DNA from: a virus
Length of the DNA: 26,336 nt
Strand: one strand, 5' to 3'
IMG/VR virus record: IMGVR_UViG_3300025137_007009
Location: 1 to 26,336 of that record
The notes beneath the pieces are model-generated. The model was not told the DNA's origin, made no database searches, and saw only the letters and a list, made by a program, of their open reading frames with translations. The first letter of the stretch is position 1. The number at the start of each line of letters is the position of its first letter. The translations under genes and the position numbers were made by a program. Positions 3,292 through 24,457 of this stretch are shown one piece after another.

Positions 3292-3320
3292 AAATGCACC
3301 ATTTCGGTGTATTTTTTTTT
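3292..3320 (+). terminator. rho-independent terminator
   Basis: AAATGCACC (3292-3300) pairs with GGTGTATTT (3306-3314), with one G-T pair, across the loop ATTTC. A run of nine T (3312-3320) follows. It sits after the SDR gene. A separate perfect 5-bp hairpin (GGCTA 3254-3258, TAGCC 3262-3266) covers the SDR stop codon. The T tract runs directly into the GGAGA ribosome-binding site of the next gene, so read-through or a promoter overlapping the hairpin must supply downstream expression. Confidence 0.75.
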
Positions 3321-3331
3321 GGAGATATATA

Positions 3332-3637
3332 ATGTCAAATACTTTAGAAATATTACTAATCATAACTTTAGCCATATTAATTTTTAGTGCTGGTCTATAT
3401 ATTGGTAGATTTATGAATCATAGTCACGAAGAAAACAAGCCCTCTAGCTTTTTAAAAAGCCAAGGTAGAAAAGATAATGGTCAAAATAGTAATATAGAAA
3501 TTGATGACACAAAAGTGGTTTTAAAAGTGGATACCACGGGCATGGAGAAAAAATTTGACAAAATAACAGAATCTAAAAGTGTAAAAAATGACATTTCTAG
3601 TTCTGTAAACAAACTTAAAAGCATGAAAGGTAAATAA
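3332..3637 (+). CDS. small single-pass membrane protein
   Basis: This 101-residue protein has GGAGA (3321-3325) well placed before the ATG. Residues 6-25 form one hydrophobic helix (LLIITLAILIFSAGLYI), followed by GRFMNHSHEEN and a charged, Ser/Lys-rich tail. The predicted topology is an N-terminal anchor with a long cytoplasmic tail. The tail contains a predicted strand (TKVVLKVDTTG) and a helix near the end. It lies one base upstream of an actin-like ATPase, so it could be a membrane anchor or adaptor for that filament protein. This is inference from context; no known partner family is recognised. Confidence 0.7.
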   Translation: MSNTLEILLIITLAILIFSAGLYIGRFMNHSHEENKPSSFLKSQGRKDNGQNSNIEIDDTKVVLKVDTTGMEKKFDKITESKSVKNDISSSVNKLKSMKGK

Positions 3638-3638
3638 T

Positions 3639-4640
3639 ATGATAGGTCTTGATGTCGGTACAAGTTTTATTGTTGCTTCTTCTTACAATGGGGATAAAAT
3701 TGAGTTTAATGACTTTAGAGATGCCTTTTATGTAATTAAGCCAACCACTCCTATTGCTACCAAAATGGTGGAAAAAGGATTGAAAGGAAAAATATTTATC
3801 AAGGATACTGATGGGTCTTTTATCATATTAGGTAAGGATGCTATAGAGAAGGCAGTAGAACGAAACGAAACTGCTCGTCGTCCTATGTATAGAGGAGTAG
3901 TCTCTGTAAAAGAAAAATCAGCAAAAAGAATATTAGCTTACATACTCAAAGAAGTTGTGGGTCAGGCAAGCGAACCCGACGAGAAGCTCGTTTTCTGTGT
4001 ACCCGCACAGCCAGTAGATCAAGATGGTGATGATTTTGATGTAGGCTATCATGAAGATGTAGTAAAAACTATCTTATCAGAAGTTGGATATGATGCCAGA
4101 TCAGTAAACGAAGCTGAAGCATTATGTTATTCTGAATTAGAAGATAGTGACTATACTGGTATTGGTATTAGTTGTGGAGCAGGTATGACCAATGTTTGTG
4201 TTATGCTTAACGGAGAACCAACTGTAGTCTTTAGTACAACAAAGTCGGGTGATTGGGTAGACCGTATGAGTGCGGTAGCTACTGGAGAACCAGATAGTGT
4301 TGTTCAGGTTGAGAAAGAGGGCGGCGGTTTTAAAGTGGGTGAACCAAATGATAGTCCTGTATTAAGTGCAGTAGCATCTTATTACGACAGACTAGTAGAG
4401 TATACAGCTAAACAATTATCTTCTGCTTTAGCTGGACACAAATCTTTGCCTAAATTTAAAGACTCTATAAAAGTTGTAGTTGCTGGTGGCACATCACAAG
4501 CAGATGGCTATATAGAGAAATTACATGAGAAATTATTGGCATCAGATTTCCCTTTAGAGATAGAAGTAGTCAAGCACGCTGCCGATCCACTACATTCAGT
4601 ATCAAAAGGATGTTTGATTGCTGCTAGTATATTAGATTAG
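3639..4640 (+). CDS. actin-like ATPase (ParM/MreB/Hsp70 superfamily)
   Basis: This 333-residue protein has the actin-ATPase layout: phosphate-1 loop GLDVGTS (residues 3-9), connect-1 VNEAEAL (156-162), phosphate-2-like GISCGAGMTNVCV (176-188), and adenosine motif VVVAGGTSQADG (279-290). The acidic residue usual at the start of phosphate 2 (as in D-x-G-G-G-T) is Ser178 here, so nucleotide hydrolysis may differ. Related proteins polymerise to segregate plasmids (ParM), shape cells (MreB) or position phage DNA, and others are Hsp70-like chaperones. The short gene upstream encodes a membrane-anchored protein one base away, which suggests a membrane-linked filament. No ParR-like DNA-binding partner is obvious next to it. 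Superfamily is secure; filament versus chaperone is undecided. Confidence 0.82.
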   Translation: MIGLDVGTSFIVASSYNGDKIEFNDFRDAFYVIKPTTPIATKMVEKGLKGKIFIKDTDGSFIILGKDAIEKAVERNETARRPMYRGVVSVKEKSAKRILAYILKEVVGQASEPDEKLVFCVPAQPVDQDGDDFDVGYHEDVVKTILSEVGYDARSVNEAEALCYSELEDSDYTGIGISCGAGMTNVCVMLNGEPTVVFSTTKSGDWVDRMSAVATGEPDSVVQVEKEGGGFKVGEPNDSPVLSAVASYYDRLVEYTAKQLSSALAGHKSLPKFKDSIKVVVAGGTSQADGYIEKLHEKLLASDFPLEIEVVKHAADPLHSVSKGCLIAASILD

Positions 4641-4646
4641 AATAAA

Positions 4647-4970
4647 ATGATTAATATATTATCTATATTTAGAAAAGAATTAAGATATGCCGTCAGGTCA
4701 CCGGGATGGTCTAGTTTGAGAAAAAAGCATATTGAAAAACAGCCTTGTTGCCAAGCGTGTGGATCGTGTAAAAGACCGGAAGTTCATCATATAGTACCTG
4801 TTCATTTAGATCCCTCTAAAGAGTTAGACCCAGACAATCTTATAACTTTATGCGATAAATACTGTCATTTTCTTTTCGGACATTTAATGAATTATAAAAG
4901 CTGGAATACTAATGTCATAGAGGATTCTAAGGTGTATTATAATAAGGTTAAAAATAAACCCTTTAAATAA
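4647..4970 (+). CDS. HNH endonuclease
   Basis: This 107-residue HNH nuclease carries the zinc pair C35-QA-C38, the HNH core VHHIVPVHLDPS (residues 46-57), DPDNLITLC (61-69) with the central Asn64, and C73-H74 with final His79. Such small nucleases cleave double-stranded DNA. In phages they appear as homing enzymes or as terminase-associated packaging nucleases. The start six bases after the actin-like gene and the absence of an interrupted host gene argue against an intron-borne element, though a free-standing homing endonuclease remains possible. Confidence 0.88.
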   Translation: MINILSIFRKELRYAVRSPGWSSLRKKHIEKQPCCQACGSCKRPEVHHIVPVHLDPSKELDPDNLITLCDKYCHFLFGHLMNYKSWNTNVIEDSKVYYNKVKNKPFK

Positions 4971-4986: not shown

Positions 4987-5769
4987 ATGAAATACCTTAT
5001 TCTTGCAATATTATTGCTTTTGCCTGTTCAGGCTTATTGTGGAACTATTGATCCTACTGTTTCTGACGCTAAATATCTTGAATATGGAGTAAAATACGAG
5101 TGTGTTTTGCCTATATTAGGAGTCATGAATAATGATTTAAATTCGCATTTTAGAGGTTCCTGCGTAGTCATAGACGAGTATCATATACTAACCGCTGCTC
5201 ATGTTGTACACGATTCTATAACTCAACATGTAGTTTATAAAAATGAAGCATATCCTTGCTCAATCGTAGCTATTCACGGAGATTATAAGTCCGGTGTTAT
5301 GGGCAAAAACGATATCGCTATAGCTAGATTGCAGAGACCAATAAAATTAGACTTTTATCCTGAATTATATAAAGATAAAGACGAAGTTAATAAAGTCTGT
5401 GGTCTGTCAGGATTCGGCCATCATGGGGATTTTAATAGTGGTTGGATTATGGGAACTTTTGATAATCAAAGAAGAGCAGGATCAAATATTATTGATGGAA
5501 TAAGCAGGAATGTATTACAGTATTCTGTACACTCAGGAAATAAAACAGAGTTAGAATTTTTAATATGTCCGGGAGATAGCGGAGGTGGATTATTTATAGA
5601 CAAAAAATTAGCAGGTATTCATTCTTACGTGTCTGCTACAGACGGCAAAAGTGATTCTGATTATGGAGATATTGGTTGTAGCACAAGAGTCAGCGATTAT
5701 GTAGAGTGGATAGAAAAAGTTAAAGAAGTACTTAGTGAGGCTATAGACAAAGCGAAAAATAATAAATGA
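4987..5769 (+). CDS. secreted trypsin-like serine protease
   Basis: This 260-residue chymotrypsin-fold protease has an N-terminal signal peptide (MKYLILAILLLLPVQAYCG), so it is predicted to be exported to the periplasm or outside the cell. The catalytic triad is visible: His72 in LTAAHVVHD, Asp109 in KNDIAIARL, Ser198 in CPGDSGGG. Cys60 and the later cysteines could form disulfides, consistent with export. The S1 pocket region following Ser198 (LAGIHSYVS) cannot be read for specificity. The last codon overlaps the start of the next gene by ATGA. A viral exported protease could process host surface proteins or virion components, or act in competition or lysis; this is inference. Confidence 0.9.
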   Translation: MKYLILAILLLLPVQAYCGTIDPTVSDAKYLEYGVKYECVLPILGVMNNDLNSHFRGSCVVIDEYHILTAAHVVHDSITQHVVYKNEAYPCSIVAIHGDYKSGVMGKNDIAIARLQRPIKLDFYPELYKDKDEVNKVCGLSGFGHHGDFNSGWIMGTFDNQRRAGSNIIDGISRNVLQYSVHSGNKTELEFLICPGDSGGGLFIDKKLAGIHSYVSATDGKSDSDYGDIGCSTRVSDYVEWIEKVKEVLSEAIDKAKNNK

Positions 5770-6317
5770 AGACAACAGAAGAAATTAGTGGTTGGTTTAA
5801 TTATCCAAACGCATATAAATTTTTAATAGATTCTGTACCCGATGGTGGTATATTTGTAGAATGCGGATCATGGCTTGGAAAAAGTTCTTCATTTTTGTGT
5901 GACCACGCTAAAGACAGGATAAAAATATTTATAGTTGATACATGGACGGGTTCTGAGAGTGAACTTAAAACAACGCATGAACTAGCATTGAAAAAAAATA
6001 TATATGAAATTTTTTTACACAATATGGGGAACAGGAAATTTACTGCGATAAAAAAAGATTCTATAGATGCATCTAGAGATTTTGAAGACGAAGAATGCGA
6101 TGTTGTATACATTGATATGGAACATACATACGAAGCAGTTAAAAAAGATATAGAGTACTGGCTACCAAAAGTAAAACCCAATGGGATTATCGCAGGACAT
6201 GATTATTGTGACGGTTTTCCTGGAGTCGTTAGAGCAGTAGATGAAAAATTTCATAAATCTATAGTATCTATTATGGACGATATAACTTGGGTAGTACATA
6301 AAAAAGATATAGTCTAA
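5766..6317 (+). CDS. class I SAM-dependent methyltransferase
   Basis: This 183-residue Rossmann methyltransferase is coupled to the protease gene by ATGA. Motif I is FVECGSWLGKSSS (residues 30-42), the acidic end of strand 2 is IVDTW (56-60), DVVYIDMEHTYEA marks strand 4, and GIIAGHDYCDGF is the post-strand-5 segment. This arrangement is typical of the Methyltransf_24 / glycan-associated class found in polysaccharide clusters. Such enzymes often methylate sugars, but the acceptor cannot be read from sequence. It ends the left plus-strand block and faces the minus-strand glycan operon across 21 bases. Confidence 0.85.
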   Translation: MKTTEEISGWFNYPNAYKFLIDSVPDGGIFVECGSWLGKSSSFLCDHAKDRIKIFIVDTWTGSESELKTTHELALKKNIYEIFLHNMGNRKFTAIKKDSIDASRDFEDEECDVVYIDMEHTYEAVKKDIEYWLPKVKPNGIIAGHDYCDGFPGVVRAVDEKFHKSIVSIMDDITWVVHKKDIV

Positions 6318-6338
6318 TAATTTCTTAGTTCTTTTATT

Positions 6339-6533
6339 TTAATCTTCTACAGGTTCCTTATCTTGACCTTCCTGATTATTCGGTGGGTATATATCCACAC
6401 CCAAAGCAGATAAAGTTTTAGATATTAGATAATCAACCTTGTCTGACTCTTCTTTATCGTATTTTAATTCCTGTGTATTAGAGTAACAGCATAATGCGTT
6501 ATAAATTGTGTTTAATTCTTTTTTATCAAACAT
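6339..6533 (-). CDS. small hypothetical protein
   Basis: This 64-residue soluble protein is the last gene of the minus-strand operon. Its ATG overlaps the stop of the upstream glycosyltransferase (ATGTTTGA), which supports its being real. It is predicted to be helical for residues 4-45, with an acidic, Pro-rich tail (PPNNQEGQDKEPVED) and two adjacent cysteines (CC, 15-16). I do not recognise the family. Confidence 0.6.
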   Translation of the reverse strand: MFDKKELNTIYNALCCYSNTQELKYDKEESDKVDYLISKTLSALGVDIYPPNNQEGQDKEPVED

Positions 6534-7353
6534 TTTCTTTTCCTCTTGTGGATTTTCTTAATGTTTTTATTTTTTTATGAAATGTAAGTAATTGATTTTT
6601 TTGATAGCCATTGCAGTCCTGTACTGTTGTTAACCAAGTCTGTTTAATCTGTTCATCTGTCTTATCTTTTATGATATTAAATACTTTTTTCCAGTGGGTG
6701 CCTCCTATTTGTTTCGTGCTTTTAGCGTAAGTGTCTTGCCATCTAAAGTGTTTTCTTTTAAAATGATCAAATCCCCTATGATGAAAGTGAAGTAATCCCA
6801 TATTAGTTTTATGGTATTCGTATTCAGGAAAACCATGATTGCCTTGATCTGTTGCCATGAAAAAAATTGTTTTATAAAAAGATTTCCATCTATTAAATTC
6901 ATTTTTATTTTCGTATTGATAACTATCACAATTAACGAGTAAATCACTATGTTTTGTTGCATTAATAGTTAAAGACTTAAATTTAAAAGCATCTAATTCA
7001 TTTATGTTCGCATACTTCGTTAATTCTTGTATAACTTTTTTATTGTCGCATATAATTTGATCTTTTTCTATGCAAATAATGAACTCATCAATATCTATTG
7101 GTATTACCAGTTTAGATTTGCCTTTGTATCTATGAATAGTCTTAGTTAGTATCTTGGCTTTTCCATAATTTTCAAATGGGCCGTCATACGTTATAAGATT
7201 CACACCATATTTTTTAATAGTATTTCTACTTTTCTTAGACTTATGATCTATTACATAAATATTTTCTTTTCCAAAAAGATATATATGATATCTTAGCCAG
7301 TCTTCAAGTATGTCATCTTCATCTCTTTGTATCGTAAATACTTTTATACTCAT
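6526..7353 (-). CDS. GT-A-like glycosyltransferase (Glyco_tranf_2_4/GT92-like)
   Basis: This 275-residue protein starts at the ATG at 7353, which overlaps the upstream gene's TGA (ATGA); a longer frame to 7380 is less likely. The opening TIQRDEDDILEDWLRYH is the signature of the Glyco_tranf_2_4/GT92-like group. IPIDIDEFI (near residue 85) supplies the DxD metal site. A histidine-rich stretch LLHFHHRGFDHFKRKHF follows, as is usual near the acceptor side in this group. No signal peptide or membrane segment is present, so it is probably cytoplasmic. Donor and acceptor sugars are unknown. It belongs to the ADP-heptose operon. Confidence 0.75.
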   Translation of the reverse strand: MSIKVFTIQRDEDDILEDWLRYHIYLFGKENIYVIDHKSKKSRNTIKKYGVNLITYDGPFENYGKAKILTKTIHRYKGKSKLVIPIDIDEFIICIEKDQIICDNKKVIQELTKYANINELDAFKFKSLTINATKHSDLLVNCDSYQYENKNEFNRWKSFYKTIFFMATDQGNHGFPEYEYHKTNMGLLHFHHRGFDHFKRKHFRWQDTYAKSTKQIGGTHWKKVFNIIKDKTDEQIKQTWLTTVQDCNGYQKNQLLTFHKKIKTLRKSTRGKENV

Positions 7354-7979
7354 AAGATTCTTTCCATCAACCCATAACACTGTATAAATTTACATCTATT
7401 CATATTGATTTGACGAAGCATGTAAAGTTTTTCCCATTGAGGGTTGTGAAATTTCTTGGCAACTTTAGAATTAAAACCAACCAATATTATATCGTCATGA
7501 GTTCTCTTAGTGCTTATAAAATATTCATAAGCTATTATACCAGTACTTATGTTTTTATTCATAGGATATCCTATTCTGTTACGAACATTAGCTAGCTCTT
7601 TATCTAATGCTCCTAACCTATCTGTATCGAAATCATAAGAGTCTATTACTTTTTGGTAGCTTCTACTTGCCACACTTGACATATGTGATGGGTGTGAATG
7701 AAAATATATTTTTTTAAATAATTCTTGATCTGTATGTATCTGTTTAATATTAGCATAGCCGCGATGAAAACCCACTTGCCGCCCATCTTTGTCTAACTTC
7801 TGATAGCCGGGTGCAAAGTTACGTGATATGCAAATCTTATTCTCATAGTCAAGTACTTCTTGGAACCTCAAGGGCCACAAGTAATTAAACAGCACAAGTA
7901 GGTTTTTGCCATTTAATTCTAGTTTATCTATAGATTCTTGTGTCAGTTCTTTGTTGTTTGCTATTATATAGTATTTCAT
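7350..7979 (-). CDS. sialyltransferase-motif (GT29/GT42-like) putative glycosyltransferase
   Basis: This 209-residue protein is coupled by ATGA at both ends. The N-terminal half reads like a nucleotide-sugar transferase of the GT29/GT42-like group: LLVLFNYLWPLRF, then CISRNFAPG. The best signature is NISTGIIAYEYFI followed by DDIILVGFN (roughly residues 143-170), resembling the sialylmotif 'ST-G-hydrophobic ... h-x-G-F' pattern. KIYFHSHPSHMSS carries several His residues that could serve catalysis. Similar proteins sit in bacterial polysaccharide clusters. No CMP-sialic-acid synthesis gene is in the window, so a different donor is likely. Family call is moderate. Confidence 0.5.
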   Translation of the reverse strand: MKYYIIANNKELTQESIDKLELNGKNLLVLFNYLWPLRFQEVLDYENKICISRNFAPGYQKLDKDGRQVGFHRGYANIKQIHTDQELFKKIYFHSHPSHMSSVASRSYQKVIDSYDFDTDRLGALDKELANVRNRIGYPMNKNISTGIIAYEYFISTKRTHDDIILVGFNSKVAKKFHNPQWEKLYMLRQINMNRCKFIQCYGLMERIL

Positions 7980-8377
7980 GATAGTCTGTTTCTATTCATT
8001 ATATCTGTCGTGGAATATCCGGTAATTTTAGGAAATAATATAACATTTTTTACACATTCTGATCCTATAATTTGCTTATCCTTGTAGTCATCTCCAACTA
8101 CTATGGTCTCTACATCTAAAGACTTTATAAGTATTGTTAGTTCTAAGTCGGAGTCAAAAATAAAAACGTCATCTATTTCGGGTATGTCTAAAAGTTTTTC
8201 ATGTCTGCATATCTGGTTATTAATAGGGCGATCAGCACCTTTTCTTTCTTTTGTTCTTCTGTCTGTGTCTATACCTACTATGAGTTTATCTCCTAATGAT
8301 TTAGCGTACCTAAATAATTCTATATGTCCTTTGTGAATAATATCAAAACAGCCATTAGTCCATATCGTTTTTTTCAT
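7976..8377 (-). CDS. hldE2: HldE nucleotidyltransferase domain as a separate protein (ADP-heptose synthase)
   Basis: This 133-residue cytidylyltransferase-fold protein corresponds to domain II of HldE/RfaE, which makes ADP-D-glycero-beta-D-manno-heptose from heptose 1-phosphate and ATP. The motif TNGCFDIIHKGHIELF (residues 7-22) contains the H15-KG-H18 signature. GADRPINNQ and IVVGDDYKDKQIIG match the domain's later conserved loops, and TGYSTTDIMNR closes it as in HldE. I chose the ATG at 8377 because AAGGA lies ten bases upstream; a GTG at 8383 is possible. In most Gram-negatives the kinase and nucleotidyltransferase domains are fused. Here the kinase is the overlapping upstream gene. The order and 23-base overlap imply coupled expression. 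Confidence 0.88.
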   Translation of the reverse strand: MKKTIWTNGCFDIIHKGHIELFRYAKSLGDKLIVGIDTDRRTKERKGADRPINNQICRHEKLLDIPEIDDVFIFDSDLELTILIKSLDVETIVVGDDYKDKQIIGSECVKNVILFPKITGYSTTDIMNRNRLS

Positions 8378-9107
8378 AAACACAAGTTCCTTTTTTCCTG
8401 ATTACTTGATTACAGCATTTTTGTGCATATTCTATCGCTTTTGTAGTAGTATCACCAGAATCAATAGCATAAGTAAAAGCAGCCGTGAAAACATCTCCTG
8501 CGCCAGAAACGTCGAAAGTCTGCAATACCTCAGGAGGAAAAAATTCTTGTTCATTATACAAAACGCCTTTACTTCCCCTTGTTATAATAATTTTACTTAT
8601 AGTTTCTCTATCTACTATATGTGAATTATTGGCAAATTCTTGTTCATTCAGTTTAATAAAGTTATAGCCTTCAATCATTTTTTTAGTTAGTTTGCGTTTA
8701 GTATCTAGAATAGTTAGAGGCGCTGCTCCTCCCAACTTCTCTATGTCTATATCCCAAAGAAAGCCTTTGCAATAATCAGAAACTATGATACAAGAAAAGT
8801 CTAATCCAATTTCTGTATTAACTCTAGTCACAGAGTCATTGATATCACAACGCAATAGTAGTTGATTTGTTTTACTATCTACATATCTAATTTTTTTAAT
8901 TGTATCAGGATTATTAGAGATAAAATCTATCTGATTTTCCCAAAATACTTTAGCGTTTGCATGAGTGTTACCAGCCATTCCTAAACACTCTTTAAAACTT
9001 TCTACTTTTATTATTGGTACCGGGCCTTCTGGACAAATTCTTTCACAAACACCATAAATATATTTATCAATACAAGAGTCTCCTATGACGGCATATCTTT
9101 TATTCAT
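8355..9107 (-). CDS. hldE1: HldE kinase domain as a separate protein (D-beta-heptose 7-phosphate kinase)
   Basis: This 250-residue PfkB/ribokinase-fold protein corresponds to domain I of HldE. The start is the ATG at 9107 with GAGGAG just upstream. GDSCIDKYIYG (residues 9-19), ERICPEGPVPIIKV (22-35) and GMAGNTHAN (43-51) follow HldE closely. RYVDSKTNQLLLRCD (74-88) is the sugar-binding strand pair, IKLNEQEF (151-158) is the N-x-x-E motif, and DVSGAGDVF (199-207) holds the catalytic Asp205. Product: heptose 1,7-bisphosphate. It lacks the nucleotidyltransferase half, which is the next gene. HldE domain I is usually about 310 residues, so this is a compact version. The HAD phosphatase gene just upstream overlaps it by eight bases. 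Confidence 0.9.
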   Translation of the reverse strand: MNKRYAVIGDSCIDKYIYGVCERICPEGPVPIIKVESFKECLGMAGNTHANAKVFWENQIDFISNNPDTIKKIRYVDSKTNQLLLRCDINDSVTRVNTEIGLDFSCIIVSDYCKGFLWDIDIEKLGGAAPLTILDTKRKLTKKMIEGYNFIKLNEQEFANNSHIVDRETISKIIITRGSKGVLYNEQEFFPPEVLQTFDVSGAGDVFTAAFTYAIDSGDTTTKAIEYAQKCCNQVIRKKGTCVYEKNDMD

Positions 9108-9396
9108 CAAAAAACTCCTCAGGATGTATAGTTTTATCATCTATAAAAATATCATAAGAAGGTTTTCCGAATACAATCTTGTGTCTTTTGCATCCCCATT
9201 TATTCAGTTGTTGGGTGGTGAGAGCTTCGTAGTTTTTACCAGAAGCAGAACCTCTAGCAGTCCAATATGTTATTGTATTTCCGGCTTCAAAAAGATTATT
9301 TATATGTTGTATTCTTGTCTTAATGGGCTTACTGTTTATATAATCTCCATTAAGGGTAATACAAATAGTGTTATCTATATCTATGTAGTAATTCAT
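9100..9396 (-). CDS. HAD phosphatase, EcbF/BcbF capsule-biosynthesis type
   Basis: This 98-residue HAD protein begins with DIDNTIC (D6 nucleophile, D8 acid/base). Thr46 in YWTARG is motif II, Lys78 in FGKPS is motif III and D86-D87 in FIDDKT is motif IV. The run NGDYINSKPI and the end HPEEF match the EcbF/BcbF family, small phosphatases in capsule loci. There is no cap domain, suggesting a large or flexible substrate. It lies between a cupin gene (ATGA overlap) and the heptose kinase gene, so it is the natural candidate for removing the 7-phosphate from heptose 1,7-bisphosphate, the GmhB step. That assignment is inference from context. Confidence 0.8.
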   Translation of the reverse strand: MNYYIDIDNTICITLNGDYINSKPIKTRIQHINNLFEAGNTITYWTARGSASGKNYEALTTQQLNKWGCKRHKIVFGKPSYDIFIDDKTIHPEEFFDE

Positions 9397-9755
9397 TTGC
9401 TGTTTATAATCCTATATGAGTCGTCATCGTCATGGTGAGTAGAAATTTCTATAAAGTCACATGGATAATCTAGATTACTACTAAATCTATGAGCCACTCC
9501 AGCCTCTATGGTAAAAGACTGACCTTTCTTTAATATAATAGTATCAAAAAGTTCTGATTGCCAAAATTCTAATTCTAAGTTTTTAGAATGTTGCAGTAAA
9601 AGCTCTCCTTCGATAACATAAAATGTTTCTTTCTTATTTTTGTGATAATGAACAGAACACCACTTATCACTTAAAACATGCAAATGTTTTCCGCAATATC
9701 GATTATTATTCTCTATCCACAATTCGTAACCCCATTTTTTTAAAATTGTAATCAT
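9393..9755 (-). CDS. ManC/WbuC-like cupin sugar-binding protein
   Basis: This 120-residue double-stranded beta-helix protein resembles the C-terminal cupin of mannose-6-phosphate isomerase type II. KKWGYELW (residues 6-13) is the K-P-W-G-x-x-like opening. H36-Y-H38, E43 and H89 form the cupin metal set, and IEISTHHDDDDSYRI resembles the conserved ending of ManC (E-x-Q-x-G-x-x-x-E-D-D-I-x-R). With the pyrophosphorylase half absent, it may isomerise or epimerise a sugar phosphate or nucleotide sugar. It is coupled by ATGA to the HAD phosphatase, placing it inside the heptose operon. Exact substrate unknown. Confidence 0.75.
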   Translation of the reverse strand: MITILKKWGYELWIENNNRYCGKHLHVLSDKWCSVHYHKNKKETFYVIEGELLLQHSKNLELEFWQSELFDTIILKKGQSFTIEAGVAHRFSSNLDYPCDFIEISTHHDDDDSYRIINSK

Positions 9756-9761
9756 AATGCT

Positions 9762-11339
9762 TTATTCACTTGTTATATAAGATACAATATTTTTGCTATC
9801 TTTATTCAATCCCCAATAATCAAAACTATGCTTAAAACCATGAGGATTATTACATTTTATCTGTAATGTATGTTTATTTTTTAGGTAAACTAAAGCACCA
9901 ATAGTAGATAGCCAAGAATCTATACCTAGATACCCCAAAGAACTATTACATATTTCTAAGGATTCTACAACAGAGGTTTTATTTATTAAATTAAGTAGCA
10001 GTGGATGTTTAGGAACATTTCCGTAATGAGAGCCTAATACAACACCATTTAGCATTGTGCTCTCTAAAATACTAATAGTATTTCTCCAATCTATTTGTGT
10101 AAAATTTCTTTGATTTCTATCATCATAAGAATATGGACATATCGAAATATAGTTTTTTAAAACTCCAGTATTAATATTATAAGGATACTTAAATTGTTCT
10201 TTTTCTTTAAACAAGAAAGTGTCCGTATTATATGTTTTTTTTATAAATAGTTTCTTTATTGAGCAATCTATAGCTGGCTTAATGCTCTTTCTTGTTATTC
10301 TAGTAAAATGTTCTAATGAATAATATGCTTTAGAAGAAAATCTAGGGTCGCTATAGTCTTCTAATTCATTCCACAGTATTTTAATGTCATGAAATATATA
10401 ATCTTTGCTATAACGAATTAAGTCAGTAATTTCTTTGTGCCTACTACACGCTAAGTATATTGTATCTAAATTGTTTTTAATAGAAATATCTAAAGAACAA
10501 TCAACTATTCTTAAAAAATCTCCTATACCCCCGGTTATGAAAATATTATATTTTTTTTGTGTAGAAATTTTTGTTGATCGAACTATAATCTCAGGCTTAC
10601 TAATGTCTATAAAATCTTGATCGTCGTAAACATGGCTAGTATATTCCCCGCAAATTTTATTAGGCGTTATTGTTTTTAAGAAAGGATTAGCCGTCTGCCA
10701 TTTTTTAGGAAATATAGCTATGTTGTTTTTATGTAGAAGTTCACACAGAGGTACGGTATAACCAACTTGTGCAATTACTAAATTAGAAATAAAAACTAAA
10801 TCAAATAAGTCTGAGACAGAAGTCTGTCCCATTAAATCTATGTCACATCTTATATTGTGACAATTACTTGTTCCAATGCCTACAAAATAATATTCTTTTT
10901 TAAATTCAGATATAAATTTGTTAATTATAGTTGGATCGCAATCAAGATTATCTATTCCCTTTCTATTATGTCTAGGCTCTATATATCTAATAAGACATAT
11001 TTTTTTATTATTCTTCTTATGTTTCAGTATCTTTTTAACAAGATTATGATTTTTTATACTATGATCTTTATTAAAATTAATGTCATAAGCACAAGATGAG
11101 GTTATATCTTCTATGATTGTAGTTTCTGAGTTAGTCTTATGAGGTAAATAACTAAATATTTGTGTCTCATCATCTCTTTTTTTTGAGAAAGGCAGCACCA
11201 CGCATTTTAAATCTTCAAAAACTTTTGGATAATTACTGTAAACCGCTATAGGTTCTGTAACATTATCTAAATAGGATTTTACAATTGGATATAAATATAT
11301 AGAATCTCCTAATCCGCTTTCTCCTCTTATGTATAACAT
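9762..11339 (-). CDS. tandem GT9-like (heptosyltransferase) protein
   Basis: This 525-residue protein appears to be two GT-B, GT9-like units in one chain. Unit 1 (about residues 1-250) starts with YIRGESGLGDSIYLYP, the GT9 G-x-G-D loop at 9-12, and has VGIGTSN and DLMGQTSVSDLFDLV before a QVGYTVPLCELL segment. Unit 2 (about 262-525) repeats this with ITGGIGDFLRIVD (268-280), ISICPYS and NKTSVVESLEICNSSLGYLGIDSW. GT9 enzymes transfer ADP-heptose to lipopolysaccharide core, which fits the HldE and phosphatase genes just downstream. The second unit lacks some donor-side residues I would expect and could be degenerate. Acceptor unknown; no membrane segment. Confidence 0.72.
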   Translation of the reverse strand: MLYIRGESGLGDSIYLYPIVKSYLDNVTEPIAVYSNYPKVFEDLKCVVLPFSKKRDDETQIFSYLPHKTNSETTIIEDITSSCAYDINFNKDHSIKNHNLVKKILKHKKNNKKICLIRYIEPRHNRKGIDNLDCDPTIINKFISEFKKEYYFVGIGTSNCHNIRCDIDLMGQTSVSDLFDLVFISNLVIAQVGYTVPLCELLHKNNIAIFPKKWQTANPFLKTITPNKICGEYTSHVYDDQDFIDISKPEIIVRSTKISTQKKYNIFITGGIGDFLRIVDCSLDISIKNNLDTIYLACSRHKEITDLIRYSKDYIFHDIKILWNELEDYSDPRFSSKAYYSLEHFTRITRKSIKPAIDCSIKKLFIKKTYNTDTFLFKEKEQFKYPYNINTGVLKNYISICPYSYDDRNQRNFTQIDWRNTISILESTMLNGVVLGSHYGNVPKHPLLLNLINKTSVVESLEICNSSLGYLGIDSWLSTIGALVYLKNKHTLQIKCNNPHGFKHSFDYWGLNKDSKNIVSYITSE

Positions 11340-11348
11340 ACAGATATA

Positions 11349-12002
11349 TTAATCTCCATCTTTACGAAAAACAAAAGATGTGATACTTTCTCTCCCACAC
11401 ACAGATTCTTGATCAGACACTTCTATAATCGTATACTTCATTTGATCAAAAAACTTAATTAAACCATTAATAGTATAATAGTAATAATGTTCGTTCGGCC
11501 TATAATGCTTGCTTTGTTTAACTTCAAGTATATTATCAAATATAGGAATAGATACTATTACAATTTTAGTTTTAGGTATTTTATTGAGCAGTATGTCTGG
11601 ATTCTTAATATGTTCTAGAACATCCCACATAGTAAAACCATCAATACCATCCAAGTTATCTAGATAAGGATCAACATATATATCTTTTTGTTTTAATGTT
11701 TTAACGGCATATGGATTTATATCATAACCAAAGGCTTTGTTTTTATATTTTTTAATAAATTCACCAGAACCTATTCCTATATCTAGTACTGAATTACAAT
11801 ATTTACTAGTTATGGATGTTCTAAAATCATTTAACTTTTTTGATATCTCAGTGTCTTCGTAGTTAATATATTTATTAAAGTAATCTTGATCATAATGAAC
11901 AGATACAGACATATCTCTTTGATAAGCTATAGTAAGATCATTAAGTATATTTAAAGATCCAAATTCAAAGCTTGGTTTTATTAAAATAATAGAATCACTC
12001 AT
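11349..12002 (-). CDS. SAM-dependent methyltransferase (Methyltransf_23-like)
   Basis: This 217-residue protein starts at the ATG at 12002, preceded by GAGG at eight bases; a longer frame to 12035 would lie inside the upstream gene. Motif I is VLDIGIGSGEF (residues 72-82), AFGYDINPYAV (90-100) is motif II, and MWDVLEHIKNPD (125-136) is the motif IV/post region usual for sugar and O-antigen methyltransferases. An N-terminal extension of about 65 residues includes VHYDQDYFNKYI, a segment often seen in glycan-linked methyltransferases. It overlaps the cupin gene upstream and sits nine bases from the tandem GT9 gene, indicating co-transcription. Confidence 0.85.
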   Translation of the reverse strand: MSDSIILIKPSFEFGSLNILNDLTIAYQRDMSVSVHYDQDYFNKYINYEDTEISKKLNDFRTSITSKYCNSVLDIGIGSGEFIKKYKNKAFGYDINPYAVKTLKQKDIYVDPYLDNLDGIDGFTMWDVLEHIKNPDILLNKIPKTKIVIVSIPIFDNILEVKQSKHYRPNEHYYYYTINGLIKFFDQMKYTIIEVSDQESVCGRESITSFVFRKDGD

Positions 12003-12342
12003 ATTGTTTACCTCTATCAATTCTAATAATGTCATTATTGTCTAACTCTACAAAATATATTTCAAAAGCTATAGTATCCTCCAACGCAGAAAATCTGTGT
12101 TGTAGTCCGGGAGGTACTGAAGTGCTTTGTCTGTCTGAGATAATAGTCGTATCCACTAAGTCGTAATCCTTTTGCCAAACTTCTATTTTAAGCTTTCCTT
12201 TTTCTACATAAAACATATTGTATTTATGTAAATGATAGTGTCTAGAACACATATATCCCTTTTTGGCTTCTATGCGATGTATAGAAACATTATTTTTATC
12301 AAAGATAGATTCTGTATTTCCCCAAATTTTTCCATGTATCAT
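11995..12342 (-). CDS. ManC-like cupin, first gene of the minus operon
   Basis: This 115-residue cupin is related to the mannose-6-phosphate isomerase type II domain. H35-Y-H37 and H82 are present, but the Glu usually found five residues after the second His is Asn42, so metal binding may differ from its paralogue at 9393-9755. KIWGNTESIF (5-14) is the opening motif; STSVPPGLQHRF (73-84) is the strand with the final His. AAAGG lies eight bases before the ATG (on the minus strand), a good ribosome-binding site. It leads the ten-gene operon and faces the subtilase across 61 bases. Confidence 0.75.
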   Translation of the reverse strand: MIHGKIWGNTESIFDKNNVSIHRIEAKKGYMCSRHYHLHKYNMFYVEKGKLKIEVWQKDYDLVDTTIISDRQSTSVPPGLQHRFSALEDTIAFEIYFVELDNNDIIRIDRGKQYE

Positions 12343-12366
12343 ATTATCGACCTTTAGTGTATACTA

Positions 12367-12385
12367 ATTATAACTGCATTATAAT
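12367..12385. promoter_or_regulatory. possible divergent -10 elements
   Basis: ATTATAAT (12378-12385) is a perfect palindrome that gives TATAAT on both strands, and a second minus-strand TATAAT lies at 12367-12372, between the divergent cupin and subtilase genes. No clear -35 was found for either direction. Plus-strand initiation here would leave a leader of only about 12 bases. Confidence 0.28.
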
Positions 12386-12403
12386 AAACAAAGGAGATTA
12401 CTG

Positions 12404-13327
12404 ATGTTTTTCAGCCGCAAAGATTCGTTTCTTTTTCCATATGTAAAAGAAGACATATATTCAAATTTCTCAGATCGTCAGCAGATCCCTTGGTCAATAT
12501 CACAATATAATATACCCCGTTTATGGGGTAAATATACTGGTCAAAATGTAGTAGTTGCCGTTATTGATAGCGGATGTGAACTAAATCATCCTGATTTAAG
12601 AGGCAACTATATAGAAGGATACAATACTATAGACAAAAATAAAGACCCACTTGACGAGAATGGCCACGGCACTCATGTAGCTGGTACAATAGCTGCTGTT
12701 AATAATAGTCAGGGAGTTGTGGGGGTAGCACCTGATGCAAAGATCATGCCTATTAAAGTGTTTGATAAAAGCGGGGCAGGATCAACAGCTAATGTAGCTA
12801 GTGCTGTAGAATGGGCCGGTAAAAATGGCGCAGATATTATCTGTATGTCTTTAGGTTCTAAGCATGGTAGTAGACATTTAGAGAAAGCAATTATGGGAGC
12901 CTTAAATAGAGGTGCTGTATGTTTTTGTGCAGCGGGGAACTCTGGTGAAAAAACAGACATCCTCTATCCTGCTAAGTTTGAGTTAACGGTTAGTACAGGC
13001 GCCATAGATATAAATCAAAATAGAACACTATTTAGTTGTAGTGGAGAAGAGTTAGACTTTCTAGCACCCGGAGCAGATATATTAAGTACTATGATGAATG
13101 GTCGTTACGCTGTTATGAGTGGTACTAGCATGGCAAACCCATATGTTGTTGGATGTGCGGCATTACTTTGTGAGTGGGCTAAGAAACACAGAATTAAATT
13201 AAATACAGCTGATGATTATATCAAGCACTTAAAGAAATACACTACATCTTTAAAGAATATAAAATACAAAAACAACAAATCATATGAAGGTCATGGTATT
13301 TTAGATCCAAGAAAATTTAATTTTTAG
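12404..13327 (+). CDS. subtilisin-family (S8) protease, intracellular type
   Basis: This 307-residue protease has the complete S8 active site: Asp55 (AVIDSG), His88 (NGHGTHVAGT), oxyanion Asn179 (AAGNSG) and Ser242 (GTSMANP). There is no signal peptide and no long I9 propeptide. Only about 26 residues precede the mature-like QQIPW. Residues 9-14 (FLFPYV) closely resemble the LIPY motif in the short inhibitory N-terminal extension of Bacillus-type intracellular subtilisins, suggesting latency until trimmed. AAGGAG (12391-12396) supports the start. Roles could include virion maturation or processing of host proteins. It is a lone plus-strand gene between two minus-strand blocks and overlaps the next gene's 3' end by 11 bases. 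Confidence 0.93.
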   Translation: MFFSRKDSFLFPYVKEDIYSNFSDRQQIPWSISQYNIPRLWGKYTGQNVVVAVIDSGCELNHPDLRGNYIEGYNTIDKNKDPLDENGHGTHVAGTIAAVNNSQGVVGVAPDAKIMPIKVFDKSGAGSTANVASAVEWAGKNGADIICMSLGSKHGSRHLEKAIMGALNRGAVCFCAAGNSGEKTDILYPAKFELTVSTGAIDINQNRTLFSCSGEELDFLAPGADILSTMMNGRYAVMSGTSMANPYVVGCAALLCEWAKKHRIKLNTADDYIKHLKKYTTSLKNIKYKNNKSYEGHGILDPRKFNF

Positions 13328-13631
13328 TTTTCTCTTGATTTTTATAGTAAGAAAAATATGGTGTTTGTTGAGGATCTACACCTAACCACTGCAATACCAT
13401 AACGGCTGTTCGTCGTTCTTTCTGTATTTCTCGATACTCAGATCTATCAGCATCATAAACGCTATTGTATATTGTCTGATGCTGATATTGTATTTGATTA
13501 TGAGTAGTCAAGCGACCTCCGTTGTTAGCGAAGTTCATGAATCTACCCATACTATCACCAACCATCTGCTGACCAAAACAATTAGAACAAGAACTAAGGA
13601 CAAGTAATATAATTAAAGTTTTCTGAAACAT
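13317..13631 (-). CDS. small exported protein with signal peptide
   Basis: This 104-residue protein begins MFQKTLIILLVLSSCSNCFGQQ, a signal peptide; LSSC could serve as a weak lipobox, otherwise cleavage near CFG is possible. The start is ATG 13631; a TTG six bases earlier is an alternative. The mature part is Gln/Asn/Tyr-rich (QIQYQHQTIYNS) and has a helical basic stretch (REIQKERRTAVMVLQWLG). It shows no enzyme motif. Convergent with the subtilase, with an 11-base 3' overlap. Its 5' end overlaps the methyltransferase gene upstream in the same operon. Function unknown; a periplasmic or surface-anchored accessory protein is possible. Confidence 0.65.
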   Translation of the reverse strand: MFQKTLIILLVLSSCSNCFGQQMVGDSMGRFMNFANNGGRLTTHNQIQYQHQTIYNSVYDADRSEYREIQKERRTAVMVLQWLGVDPQQTPYFSYYKNQEKTKN

Positions 13632-14302
13632 CCCCAAGCCGCCTTTTCTGTATTAAAGTTTTCTACTTTTTCAAGGTTATTTGTCTTACAACTATCTATA
13701 ATAGCATCATCTTGTACTTCAAGCCAGTTCCAATATTTATTTTTTATATGCTTATTAAATATGTCTACATCCTTTGCATAGTCGTGCAGCATAATATAGT
13801 CTCCTTGTTTTATAATGCTAGAAAGCATTTTAAATTCGCAAGGCTTGCAGCCGCCATCACATAAAACACAACTAGTGCCATTTTTATTTATTATATCCAC
13901 TAGAATTTGTCTACTATACTCATCTGCAAAGTCAGAATAATCTCCGTTGAATATGTTTTGATGATATACTGTGATGTTCAACAAACTGTCTTGTTGTAAT
14001 AAATACTCAGCTTTCCTTACGTCGAAAGTATGCACACGAAAATCATGACTATATTGCAGCATTATATCTCTTACTGCTTTAGTACAAGCTCCTTGATAGG
14101 TTCCTATCTCTATAATGTTAGAAGGTTTTATCTCTTTAAATAACTCATCAAAACAAAAGATAAAATTAGGATTTTGTTCTATAGCAATACGATCATAACT
14201 ACAATGAGATATCTGTGATTCTGATAATTTTTTATTAAAGTAATCATTATCAAAACAATCTTGACCATCGCACCTAACTCTATCTCTTATGGTCTGATTC
14301 AT
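13613..14302 (-). CDS. class I methyltransferase, CmcI/cephalosporin-hydroxylase-like
   Basis: This 229-residue protein starts at ATG 14302, which overlaps the upstream TGA (ATGA), so a longer frame to 14335 was rejected. Motif I is IIEIGTYQGACT (residues 63-74), and VHTFDVRKAEYL follows as strand 2. SCVLCDGGCKPCEF and GDYIMLHDYAKDVD correspond to strands 4-5 of the CmcI-like group. Such proteins occur in polysaccharide and natural-product clusters as methyltransferases of unknown acceptor. An unusual number of cysteines (CDGGCKPC) lies near the active site. Part of the second minus-strand glycan block. Confidence 0.75.
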   Translation of the reverse strand: MNQTIRDRVRCDGQDCFDNDYFNKKLSESQISHCSYDRIAIEQNPNFIFCFDELFKEIKPSNIIEIGTYQGACTKAVRDIMLQYSHDFRVHTFDVRKAEYLLQQDSLLNITVYHQNIFNGDYSDFADEYSRQILVDIINKNGTSCVLCDGGCKPCEFKMLSSIIKQGDYIMLHDYAKDVDIFNKHIKNKYWNWLEVQDDAIIDSCKTNNLEKVENFNTEKAAWGCFRKL

Positions 14303-15306
14303 TTTAGTAGTTCTAAATTGGTCAAGTTTATACATCTTGATATATTGTTATTCATGCCTGAATTTCTTTCGTACCATGCTCTAGCATTTTTTGTTATAAA
14401 AGATAAATATTCATGATTGTTCTTAACTCTGTCCCATATGTAGATAGTATTTTCTTGCATGTCTTTTGAATTTAAGTATTTAGGATTACCATTATCCATA
14501 TAGTCACAATTGTGATAACAGCTGATATAATGATAATTAGGAATAAGTGGATCTGGATAGTTCGTTACAATGATTGGACGAATAACAGGAACACCTAAAG
14601 CAAAGCATTCTATATCTCTATTGCATATTTCAGTACCTCCGGGTAAACTCAATGCGCACTTATATGTTGATACCTCTTTTAAGTATTCTTGATATTCTAT
14701 ATTTTGATTCTCTTGATTTTTATCTAGAATAATAATGTCTCTACATCTTTGGTCAAATTGAGTAGTCATCTCTTTTCTGAAATCCCACATATATCCTCGA
14801 AAGAATAATTTTGGTATTGTTTTATTTATATCTCTATTTTTATATAATATATCAATCATTTCAGTACAACAATCATAATAACTACTATATGGTAATCCTT
14901 GGTATACAGCATCCATATCTATAGGAAATTTAGTATCGCTATTGTTTTGATTTTGTCTTTTAAAATGATAATAATCTAAAAAATTAAAACCCCCGGCATA
15001 AAAAAATTGCGTCATTTTCTGAGGTTCCCAACCCATATGCGTCATGAAATGATATTTCCAATTATCAAAAAAAGAGAAAACGGCATATTTCCCATTGTCT
15101 GGGTTCATTAAAGACATACTCATACAGCTATATACTCCCCCATAGCCATGTTTTTCGTATTCTGGATAGTTTTTATTGATAAATTTTATATCAGAGTATT
15201 CTTGACCAAACGCAGACATTAAATTGTTAAAAAAACTTGTTACATAAAAATTCTTTCCAGAGTGTATTATATTCCTAGAAAGATGACGAAAATATAATCT
15301 TTGCAT
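14299..15306 (-). CDS. exostosin/GT90-like glycosyltransferase
   Basis: This 335-residue protein has a GT-B C-terminal signature: KLFFRGYMWDFRKEM, then YLKEVSTYKCALSLPGGTEICNRDIECFALGVPVIRP, close to the donor-site pattern of exostosin-type and GT90 enzymes (h-x-L-x-x-x-G-x-x-x-x-R-D-h-E-x-h-x-x-G-x-x-P). The N-terminal half is less conserved, with several Tyr/Phe-rich stretches. No signal peptide or membrane helix. Its ATG is nine bases from the ATG of the divergent plus-strand gene and lacks an obvious Shine-Dalgarno site. It is coupled downstream to the CmcI-like methyltransferase by ATGA. Confidence 0.68.
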   Translation of the reverse strand: MQRLYFRHLSRNIIHSGKNFYVTSFFNNLMSAFGQEYSDIKFINKNYPEYEKHGYGGVYSCMSMSLMNPDNGKYAVFSFFDNWKYHFMTHMGWEPQKMTQFFYAGGFNFLDYYHFKRQNQNNSDTKFPIDMDAVYQGLPYSSYYDCCTEMIDILYKNRDINKTIPKLFFRGYMWDFRKEMTTQFDQRCRDIIILDKNQENQNIEYQEYLKEVSTYKCALSLPGGTEICNRDIECFALGVPVIRPIIVTNYPDPLIPNYHYISCYHNCDYMDNGNPKYLNSKDMQENTIYIWDRVKNNHEYLSFITKNARAWYERNSGMNNNISRCINLTNLELLK

Positions 15307-15315
15307 TAAAATACC

Positions 15316-15951
15316 ATGATATCTATTGTTACAACTTGTTTGGACTATTCTGATTTTTTAGCCGAGACATATAAATATAATGTTTCAGAACTAAAAAAAT
15401 ATAACTATTGGATAGTAACAGAAAAAGAGGATAAGGCAACCAATGAATTTTGCAAAAAACATGACATAAATGTTTACCACACTGATCAATTTAGGGCTGG
15501 GGGTTGTGCTTTTAATAAATCGAGAGCTCTTAATTCTTTCTTTTGTGACAATAAAAATAATTTATTTACAAATGATTGGATATTATTATGCGATGCAGAT
15601 GTTGTTATAGCCCCTACTATTAAGTTTTTTGCAGAAAAAGCGGATAAGGATAAAAGGTGTTTATATAGCACAGGACGATATATCTGCTATAATAAAAATC
15701 AGTTTAAAAAAGAAACAACTGAATATGAAAGCTGTAAGCATCTTGGGTTTTTTCAAATGTTCCATAAAGACCATATTACAGATAGACTGAATAAACATAA
15801 ATGGTTTTTACATAGTTACTATAATGCTTCTACTTATGATATGGAATTTGCCAAAGAATTTAATTGCAAAATAGATCTACAAGGCTTTGATGTGCTACAC
15901 TTGGGTCCAGCTTATACAAATTGGGACGGCAGAAGATCTGATACATGGTAA
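15316..15951 (+). CDS. GT-A-fold glycosyltransferase
   Basis: This 211-residue protein has a GT-A opening ISIVTTCLDYSDFL, and ILLCDADVVIAP carries the D-x-D metal site near residue 95. AGGCAFNKSRALN resembles the pattern around the nucleotide-binding site in GT2/GT-A enzymes, and GFDVLHLGP is a late His-containing motif. It is about 60 residues shorter than a typical GT2 domain. It is the only plus-strand gene within the 13-19 kb minus-strand block, with no visible ribosome-binding site. Inverted placement suggests independent acquisition or rearrangement. Confidence 0.75.
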   Translation: MISIVTTCLDYSDFLAETYKYNVSELKKYNYWIVTEKEDKATNEFCKKHDINVYHTDQFRAGGCAFNKSRALNSFFCDNKNNLFTNDWILLCDADVVIAPTIKFFAEKADKDKRCLYSTGRYICYNKNQFKKETTEYESCKHLGFFQMFHKDHITDRLNKHKWFLHSYYNASTYDMEFAKEFNCKIDLQGFDVLHLGPAYTNWDGRRSDTW

Positions 15952-15957
15952 ATTAAA

Positions 15958-17226
15958 TTAGAGTAATCCTGTTATTGGAGGCGACCATCCTTGAGATTCG
16001 CTATGAGGCCAAACGATCCAGCTGTTTGGTTTAATCTCTGTTTGAAATTCCCTCCATACTTTACAATAGCCATCAGGATCAGTCTTCATTCTATCTATTT
16101 CTTCCTTGTTAGCATCCTGTCTATGTATGTCGTTACCTTCTTTGTCTTTGAAAGCTACGCACCAAAAGTCATAATCAGATAAAGGCACTTGTTCAAAAGA
16201 AATATCAATACAGTGTCTAAAAATACTTAAAAGACATCCATAAAATTCTTCGTCTGATACTTGATTATTTACATTAGGAGATACTTTATCTTTAGTCTGA
16301 GGAGAGATAGCTCTCTTCTTAAAACATAGACCTGCATATTTTTCATATTCTAGAAGAGTCCTTTCCTTACCAAATCCGTACTCTCCCAAATCTTCATATT
16401 CTTGACCGTCCATTTGGAATAATTTTCGATTTCTTAAGTGAGAGCTATTATTAGTGATATGCCAATCTTTATGGTCATCCCAATGTTTTGTTCTACCTTT
16501 TCTAGTGTATTCATGCCAACATATTACTTCGTTTGGATGGAATAAATCATAACCATAAGTGAAGGCTCTAGCAGCAATACTGATTTCTTCTCCATGAAAA
16601 TACATTTGAGGATCGTGTCTAACTTCTGTAGCGAAAGAACCTAGTGAAAAAGCGAAGTGAGCACTATAAAATCTAGAAGGCAAAGGTTTACTGATGTCGT
16701 CATATGAATCAAAGGCAGCAGGTAAGAAAAACACAGCTCCTTCTGGAATATATCTATCAAAATTCATTTTCCACGGAACATTTACTCTAGCTGCTGGGTC
16801 ATTATCTGGGTCGAAACTAGGGATATAAGCGGTTATTAAAGGTTTTTTATGGCCATCTTTTTGCAAAATTTGAATCATATCTTTAAGCTTTGTATCCCAT
16901 CCTTGAGCGAACCTATGATGACTGTCAAGCTGTAAAGTGTAATCTTCTTGATCGTATAAGGATTGAACTGCATGTCTGGCCCAACATACCCCTTTTGCTT
17001 CTCTATAATCAATATCTATAATCTTAACTCTGTCATCATTTTTATATTCATTTAGATTATCCCATTCATCCTCTGATTTATGTTGCCAAGCTATGCCAAC
17101 CCGTATATTCTCAGGATTGTCAGCATTAAAAAACATATCTTTTAATGTCGGTAATAATTGAGGATCCCTATAAGCGGCTATTTGCACAAATATAGTTTTA
17201 ATTTTCCCGTCTTTCTTCCTTGTCAT
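15958..17226 (-). CDS. GlcNAc-transferase-like protein (GT60, Skp1 Gnt1 family)
   Basis: This 422-residue protein matches the GlcNAc (GT60) family known from Skp1 hydroxyproline GlcNAc-transferase and bacterial relatives. IFVQIAAYRDPQLLPTL (residues 12-28) opens the domain and GVCWARHAVQSLY (79-91) follows. LQLDSHHRFAQGWD (98-111) holds the D-x-H-type metal site, and FHGEEISIAARAFTYGYDLF is the C-terminal signature. The last ~120 residues (from about 300) form an extra domain of unknown role. AGGA nine bases before the ATG supports the start. It overlaps the end of the 542-residue transferase gene by 29 bases. Acceptor may be protein or glycan; not readable. Confidence 0.85.
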   Translation of the reverse strand: MTRKKDGKIKTIFVQIAAYRDPQLLPTLKDMFFNADNPENIRVGIAWQHKSEDEWDNLNEYKNDDRVKIIDIDYREAKGVCWARHAVQSLYDQEDYTLQLDSHHRFAQGWDTKLKDMIQILQKDGHKKPLITAYIPSFDPDNDPAARVNVPWKMNFDRYIPEGAVFFLPAAFDSYDDISKPLPSRFYSAHFAFSLGSFATEVRHDPQMYFHGEEISIAARAFTYGYDLFHPNEVICWHEYTRKGRTKHWDDHKDWHITNNSSHLRNRKLFQMDGQEYEDLGEYGFGKERTLLEYEKYAGLCFKKRAISPQTKDKVSPNVNNQVSDEEFYGCLLSIFRHCIDISFEQVPLSDYDFWCVAFKDKEGNDIHRQDANKEEIDRMKTDPDGYCKVWREFQTEIKPNSWIVWPHSESQGWSPPITGLL

Positions 17227-20192: not shown

Positions 20193-20431
20193 AATATATA
20201 GAAGAAATAGAACCGGGGCAATCATTTTTTTATCAAGATAACTATTTCTTAATGACTGCAGATTTTAAAAAAAACGGAGATAGACTTTCAATAAGCCTTG
20301 CAAATGGAACCAGTAGATGGATGGGTGCTTCTGAGACAGTAGATTTGGTAGTCTTATATACAATAGACGAAGATAGTAATTTCAAACATATTAGAGAAGA
20401 AGATTCTAATGATACTAATAAGAATATCTAA
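20189..20431 (+). CDS. small hypothetical beta-rich protein
   Basis: This 80-residue protein is coupled by ATGA to the upstream charged protein and overlaps the next gene by 23 bases. Its pattern of alternating hydrophobic residues (SFFYQDNYFLMTADF, RLSISLANGTSRWM, DLVVLYTI) suggests a compact beta-barrel or sheet, ending in an acidic tail. No enzyme motif is visible and I do not recognise the family. Confidence 0.6.
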   Translation: MKYIEEIEPGQSFFYQDNYFLMTADFKKNGDRLSISLANGTSRWMGASETVDLVVLYTIDEDSNFKHIREEDSNDTNKNI

Positions 20432-22828: not shown

Positions 22829-22853
22829 TCAAAAAAACAAAAGAGTATCAATC

Positions 22854-24445: not shown

Positions 24446-24457
24446 AATTCATACAGA

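Follow-up and report, generated by a model that had tools for sequence, protein, structure and literature searches.

The window, a stretch of 26,336 bases of viral DNA, is a fragment of the IMG/VR virus record IMGVR_UViG_3300025137_007009. Between positions 3,332 and 4,640 it carries two adjoining ORFs, both starting with ATG. ORF inspection showed that the first ends with a TAA at 3635-3637 and that, after a gap of a single base, the ATG of the second follows. A first-pass annotation of this DNA, made from its letters alone, had described a single-pass membrane protein followed after one base by an actin-superfamily ATPase, and this is the layout that the ORFs show. The features of the pair are:

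3292..3314, plus strand: intrinsic-terminator-like hairpin and T run, 17 bases 5' of the ATG of the membrane-protein gene
3332..3637, plus strand: single-pass membrane protein of 101 aa, putative adaptor or anchor partner of the actin (ORF, ATG start)
3338..3406, plus strand: transmembrane helix, approximately residues 3-25 (homologue alignment; in homologue L081 the helix spans residues 2-31 at a pLDDT of ∼90)
3410..3493, plus strand: variable linker, approximately residues 27-54, predicted to be disordered, with a short P-x-S-F motif (alignment and model)
3494..3634, plus strand: conserved tail, residues 55-101, predicted strand and helix for docking on the actin (alignment and model)
3639..4640, plus strand: volactin-family actin-like ATPase of 333 aa (ORF, ATG start; Pfam match)
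4164..4193, plus strand: phosphate-2 loop GISCGAGMTN, residues 176-185, with Ser178 replacing the usual Asp (alignment)

The position of the terminator-like hairpin, just 5' of the membrane-protein gene, suggests that in this phage the pair may be the first on a transcript of its own. A scan of 4 kb on both strands gave six terminator-like sites against 1.2 expected. Hairpins of a similar kind precede the membrane-protein gene in two relatives (L003 and L006) and none was found in four others (L017, L031, L048 and L074); in several relatives the gene instead closely follows or overlaps another gene.

The ATPase is an actin of the volactin family

The ATPase matched the Pfam family Volactin (PF25216) with an E value of 2.1e-65 and 221.8 bits, against a curated cut-off of 35, and the match covers profile positions 3-321 of 321. 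Its match to the MreB family of Pfam was far weaker (3.6e-4, under the cut-off of that family), and in NCBIfam the matches, to BeeR, salactin and MamK, were all weak. When solved structures were searched, the plain sequence gave no match and a profile reached MamK at 4e-9. The window ATPase also contains motifs of the actin superfamily, namely a first phosphate loop with Asp5, Gly7 and Thr8, Glu158, and Gly-Gly-Thr at 283-285.

We made a fold model for the homologue L081, whose actin is 77% identical to that of the window, and its fold is that of actin. The nearest folds had Z values of 25.6-27.3, the top values belonging to filament structures (MamK filament, Z 27.3 over 294 residues with an rmsd of 3.0; BeeR filament, Z 27.2), and MreB followed at Z 25.9, with a sequence identity of ∼16-19% in the fold alignments. 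PilM and EutJ were also among the folds retrieved by Foldseek. The first-pass annotation had placed the ATPase in the actin superfamily, and both the family match and the fold of L081 agree with this. It had also named a closest similarity to Hsp70-type chaperones as an outcome that would speak against its reading; instead, the filament proteins MreB, MamK and BeeR come out ahead in both profile and fold searches, the first Hsp70-type chain appears at rank 46 in Foldseek, and no Hsp70 family is among the Pfam matches of the ATPase at E values up to 1.

Where MamK has an Asp in the phosphate-2 loop (VDIGAGTTD in the profile alignment), the window ATPase has Ser178, encoded by AGT at 4170-4172. 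All 221 distinct relatives that we aligned, phage and cellular (56 of clade A, 66 of clade B and 23 of clade C, as defined below, and 76 cellular), carry Ser at this position. A signature S-x-G-x-G-[ML]-x-N, derived in this analysis and not by the authors of the Volactin family, holds family-wide, with Ser, both Gly and Asn invariant in 221/221 and the variable position occupied by Met in 216 and Leu in 5. The replacement of the acidic residue singled out by the first-pass annotation is thus present, but since the volactin family shares it throughout, it is no sign of a novel type of ATPase. The available part of the report on Haloferax volactin (PMC10869688) makes no mention of the phosphate-2 Ser as a family trait. 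In that work, Haloferax volactin forms dynamic filaments in cells, which bridge the cytoplasm and contact the membrane by their tips only (PMC10869688). Replacement of Asp by Ser might slow hydrolysis or change it; given these dynamic filaments, it is no evidence against polymerisation. The invariant Ser makes the volactin family a natural test of an actin that works without the usual Asp.

Phage volactins fall into three clades

Relatives were collected by three routes: a scan of viral contigs with the window ATPase (best 80 of 306 kept), searches started from two huge-phage records (485 and 595 kb; best 80 of 108 kept, plus 30 more relatives) and a scan of cellular genomes (best 80 of 277 kept). 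The tree resolved three phage clades, A (containing the window), B and C, each with a support of 1.0; their longest contigs measure 244 kb (A), 595 kb (B) and 529 kb (C). The best 80 cellular relatives are mostly haloarchaeal, with others from Acidobacteria, Omnitrophota, a Desulfobacterales bacterium and further groups; to haloarchaeal volactins the window ATPase is ∼34-39% identical. Three of these 80 (L195-L197) are clade-A phage contigs placed in cellular bins, and the labels of the bins disagree (Flavobacteriales, Chitinophagia and Alphaproteobacteria).

Terminase (PF03237) was matched in 13 of the 16 largest clade-A contigs chosen, indicating that these are tailed phages. No match to tubulin (PF00091) was obtained in the 16 largest clade-A contigs, with a model that may miss a diverged PhuZ, and a search with PF07068 (T4 Gp23) gave no match, its controls being equally silent. 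The phage collection contained no near DNA relative. No cultured phage with the actin gene was found, the matches being two uncultured records.

The membrane protein and the actin are an obligate pair in clade A

A tail-bearing membrane ORF lies directly upstream of the actin, at a gap of 1-90 bases, in 84/84 clade-A loci (the window, 80 viral loci and 3 in cellular bins). We also searched in reverse with an alignment of the membrane protein and kept the best 80 of 133 relatives, some on contigs shared with the actin search. Among these 80 loci the actin follows directly downstream in 73 and after ∼600 bases in 6 (L320, L321, L342, L343, L347 and L351), and in the remaining one the contig ends; in two tested of the six, the insert is of the GIY-YIG/NUMOD3 homing-endonuclease type. 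This pairing is far beyond chance. The first-pass annotation had asked for conservation of the pair in relatives and had named homologues consistently found alone as evidence against it; the pair is kept in 84/84 loci from the actin side and in 79/80 from the membrane side, and no clade-A homologue stands by itself. A search of 11 large contigs of clades B or C, whose actins are equally volactins, gave no match to the membrane protein, whereas all three clade-A contigs searched alongside matched. Anchoring to the membrane is therefore not a feature of phage volactins in general.

The wider surroundings are conserved in clade A as well. Upstream of the pair we found a RuvB-like ATPase in at least 73/84 loci and RIIB in at least 49/84, and on the 3' side a trypsin-like protease in at least 59/84 and HNH in at least 49/84, these counts being lower bounds as flank lengths differ. 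In the window, an RIIB lysis-inhibitor-type protein (phrog_609, 6e-67) is encoded at 37-744, an HNH gene at 4647-4970, 3' of the actin, and a trypsin-type protease (PF00089, 3e-18) at 4987-5769. ORFs that look like GIY-YIG by eye lie 5' of several of the clade-B actins. Homing nucleases seem to cluster near the actin genes of phages. A long stretch of the window (6339-18826 and 20409-25471) carries genes for sugar and cell-surface functions. Among them are PfkB and cytidylyltransferase-like genes, which by eye resemble HldE, as well as methyltransferases, UDP-galactopyranose mutase and a number of ORFs that look glycosyltransferase-like by eye. A subtilase (PF00082, 1.5e-55) is found at 12404-13327. 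At 19068-19955 lies a pseudopilin-like DUF1559 gene (PF07596, 1.8e-27), whose product has a methylation motif at its N terminus. This gene may hint at the host; genes of the DUF1559 type are abundant in Planctomycetes.

A conserved tail is predicted to dock on the actin

Comparison of 50 distinct homologues of the membrane protein showed a single strong hydrophobic segment in 48, which agrees with the single-pass membrane protein of the first-pass annotation. Within the membrane helix, Gly21 is present in 50/50 and Gly25 in 40/50. In 46/50, Lys and Arg are more numerous C-terminal to the helix than N-terminal to it; the positive-inside rule then makes a cytoplasmic tail probable, on the same side as the actin. 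While the linker varies, the tail is conserved: it carries the motifs IxIDDTKVVxxxxT and EKK[FY]D, followed in most homologues by [VI]NKLKxM[KR] near the C terminus, where Lys94 and Leu95 are invariant in all 50. No credible DNA-binding-domain family was matched by the membrane protein in Pfam, PHROGs or NCBIfam, the best weak matches having E values of at least 0.019.

In 29 clade-A loci the membrane-protein gene and the actin gene share a reading frame. For one of them, L081, we read the pair through its single stop and obtained an artificial one-chain model with an 18-residue linker, from one AlphaFold2 run on an alignment of 39 rows (13 paired). The model had a mean pLDDT of 88 and a pTM of 0.81, with the actin above 90 in nearly all blocks and the linkers below 60. 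The tail was predicted with a strand at 81-88 and a helix at 90-104, and its blocks 71-80, 81-90 and 91-100 reached pLDDT values of 91, 94 and 92. For the L081 membrane protein alone, a control with another alignment (24 rows versus 39 for the read-through), the same blocks had 59, 58 and 78, the strand was missing and the pTM was 0.31. A lone strand needs a partner sheet, so that in the L081 model the tail most likely rests on the actin; the tail is thus predicted to dock directly on it. The first-pass annotation had suggested that the pair forms a membrane-anchored filament for positioning viral DNA or particles. That the membrane protein is dedicated to the actin-type ATPase is well supported, by the pairing in 84/84 loci and by a tail that is ordered only with the actin in the models; the positioning of viral DNA or particles would be a candidate use of such a filament.

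Partners of other volactins

Neighbours of the actin were also compared outside clade A. Of 77 cellular loci (from the best 80 of 277 relatives and including ∼15 bacterial ones), 55 have a gene for a DUF7139 membrane protein immediately 5' of the volactin, within 300 bases, and 58 contain the family. The DUF7139 gene upstream of haloarchaeal volactins (L205-L274) is a candidate membrane partner of the archaeal protein. Many of the haloarchaeal DUF7139 partners end in a basic amphipathic C terminus, and a tail motif occurs in 38/55 partners versus 3/1066 other ORFs, the pattern having been written after the tails were seen. An HMM of the clade-A tail, run over 41,288 ORF segments, had its best match outside clade A in L198 (E value 0.016, at 6020-6559), in the C terminus of the gene just 3' of the Desulfobacterales volactin; genes in the same kind of position in L200, L199 and L202 were far from significance (E values 7, 41 and 130). 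The L198 partner appeared GvpO-like by eye, an assignment that was rejected as it had no Pfam support.

In clade C (L082 and L165-L194), a protein of ∼200 residues is encoded upstream of the volactin in 29/31 loci, in some with an intervening gene, and its tail is short and rich in Leu and Lys/Arg (for example, DALSALKALRK). On a looser position matrix, clade-C partners had a median rank 4% below the top, 16/29 lying within 5%, figures that lean because the clade-C seeds were partly picked by their tails. The haloarchaeal DUF7139 tails had no match to the phage profile and ranked just at 19% on the same matrix, so that sequence kinship of haloarchaeal and phage tails is not supported. A placement of clade C in a virion gene cluster was considered and dropped, because none of its neighbours had a structural match in the family searches. 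In clade B (L083 and L085-L164; records to 595 kb), the volactin follows a soluble protein of 70-80 aa with the pattern ..LDLNINLN..WAIPDF..FGKK, which has a different C terminus, is unrelated to the clade-A partner and matched no family in family searches.

These neighbours allow a broader but doubtful reading, which we hold to be possible rather than probable: the volactins of phages, bacteria and archaea might share a portable C-terminal docking tail on the product of a neighbouring gene, with anchors having been exchanged and the actin taken up by phages more than once. The remainder of the tail-bearing protein would then decide what the filament holds, the anchor being a membrane helix in clade A, DUF7139 in haloarchaea, and other proteins in clade C and some bacteria.

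A model of a membrane-tethered phage filament and its alternatives

Our favoured model, which we consider fairly probable, is that the pair constitutes a phage-encoded, membrane-tethered volactin filament with a dedicated adaptor, serving the spatial organisation of the infected cell. The volactin-family actin encoded by the second gene would bind ATP and most likely polymerise. Its adaptor would sit with the N-terminal helix in the inner membrane and reach through a flexible linker to the conserved cytoplasmic tail, which is predicted to bind the actin directly via a short strand and an amphipathic helix. By analogy with the tails of arcadin-2 and of ParR, which uses its C terminus for binding ParM, the tail helix most likely lies in the groove between subdomains IA and IIA. 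Both ParR and arcadin-2 bind their actins in a hydrophobic groove, which in crenactin is located between IA and IIA (PMC5173319). During infection the membrane protein would hold filaments at the membrane, probably by one end; we infer an end-on tether because the filaments of Haloferax volactin touch the membrane by their tips only. The service of such filaments may be cell shape, or placement of the genome or of particles.

The chief rival to a tether is a membrane-bound depolymeriser, in which the membrane protein is a regulator instead of an anchor and its tail caps, sequesters or dismantles actin at the membrane through the groove used for filament contacts. Arcadin-2, which has the same layout of a non-conserved linker and a conserved C-terminal helix, does depolymerise crenactin (PMC5173319), and the prediction for L081 places the tail on one lone actin subunit. 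However, ParR is an adaptor although it uses the same groove of ParM, and arcadin-2 is not described as a membrane protein in the available part of that paper (PMC5173319). A membrane-bound sequesterer would moreover need a high copy number, and membrane contact by filament tips in Haloferax fits anchoring (PMC10869688). A regulator is, on this evidence, unlikely, if still the most serious of the alternatives.

The target could also be the host, with the membrane-bound phage actin co-assembling with, or blocking, MreB-like filaments so that the cell is remodelled or arrested. A fold nearest to MreB, MamK and BeeR would suit this, as would the effect of volactin on Haloferax cell shape (PMC10869688), but the low identity to MreB in the fold alignments (just ∼16-19%) does not. 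As a cognate phage partner is present in every one of the 84 clade-A loci, the system appears self-contained, and we regard interference with host filaments as improbable. Less probable still is that the ATPase is a non-polymerising switch with an actin fold, recruiting something to the membrane. PilM and EutJ, two of the proteins with a similar fold, act outside long filaments, and Ser replaces the phosphate-2 Asp in every family member aligned. Yet this same Ser is found in 76/76 cellular relatives aligned, Haloferax volactin forms dynamic filaments (PMC10869688), and the top Z values belong to filament structures.

Comparison with known systems

The phage ATPase belongs to the same family as volactin (VolA, HVO_2015, of Haloferax volcanii; PF25216) and has the same phosphate-2 Ser, a comparison made through cellular relatives, as the H. 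volcanii sequence itself is not among the loci compared. Haloarchaeal volactin genes likewise follow a gene for a membrane protein, there DUF7139. In contrast to the archaeal system, the actin described here is encoded by phages, its partner is a single-pass protein of 101 aa without a DUF7139 match, and the phage form is known from genes alone. In the open-access literature, the scope of our search as opposed to unpublished or subscription work, we found no report of a phage volactin or of a DUF7139/volactin pair. Volactin itself is already known; what is new here is a phage branch of the family with a membrane adaptor of its own.

An adaptor gene adjoining a phage actin-like gene has a precedent in AlpC and AlpA of prophage CGP3 of Corynebacterium glutamicum, where a DNA-binding adaptor links phage DNA to the actin filaments (PMC4446434). 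AlpA binds DNA, at an upstream promoter site (PMC4446434), whereas the partner in the window is a membrane protein. In layout, the pair also resembles ParM/ParR and crenactin/arcadin-2, as each partner has a conserved C-terminal tail that binds, or in our case is predicted to bind, the actin (PMC5173319). The window pair adds a membrane helix, and in its predicted tail a strand precedes the helix; neither ParR nor arcadin-2 is described as membrane-bound in the available part of that source (PMC5173319).

The PhuZ spindle of nucleus-forming jumbo phages likewise represents a cytoskeletal protein on a large phage (PMC7162821, PMC7950403), but PhuZ is a tubulin and the window ATPase an actin; the word actin is absent from the main text, as available, of the huge-phage paper (PMC7162821). 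The view of the first-pass annotation that the pair differs from known PhuZ and ParM/ParR systems therefore holds: here an actin takes the place of the tubulin, and a membrane-bound partner that of the DNA-binding one. If our model is correct, large aquatic phages of a widespread group make an actin cytoskeleton of their own that is tethered to the membrane, in contrast to the familiar jumbo-phage cytoskeleton of PhuZ tubulin.
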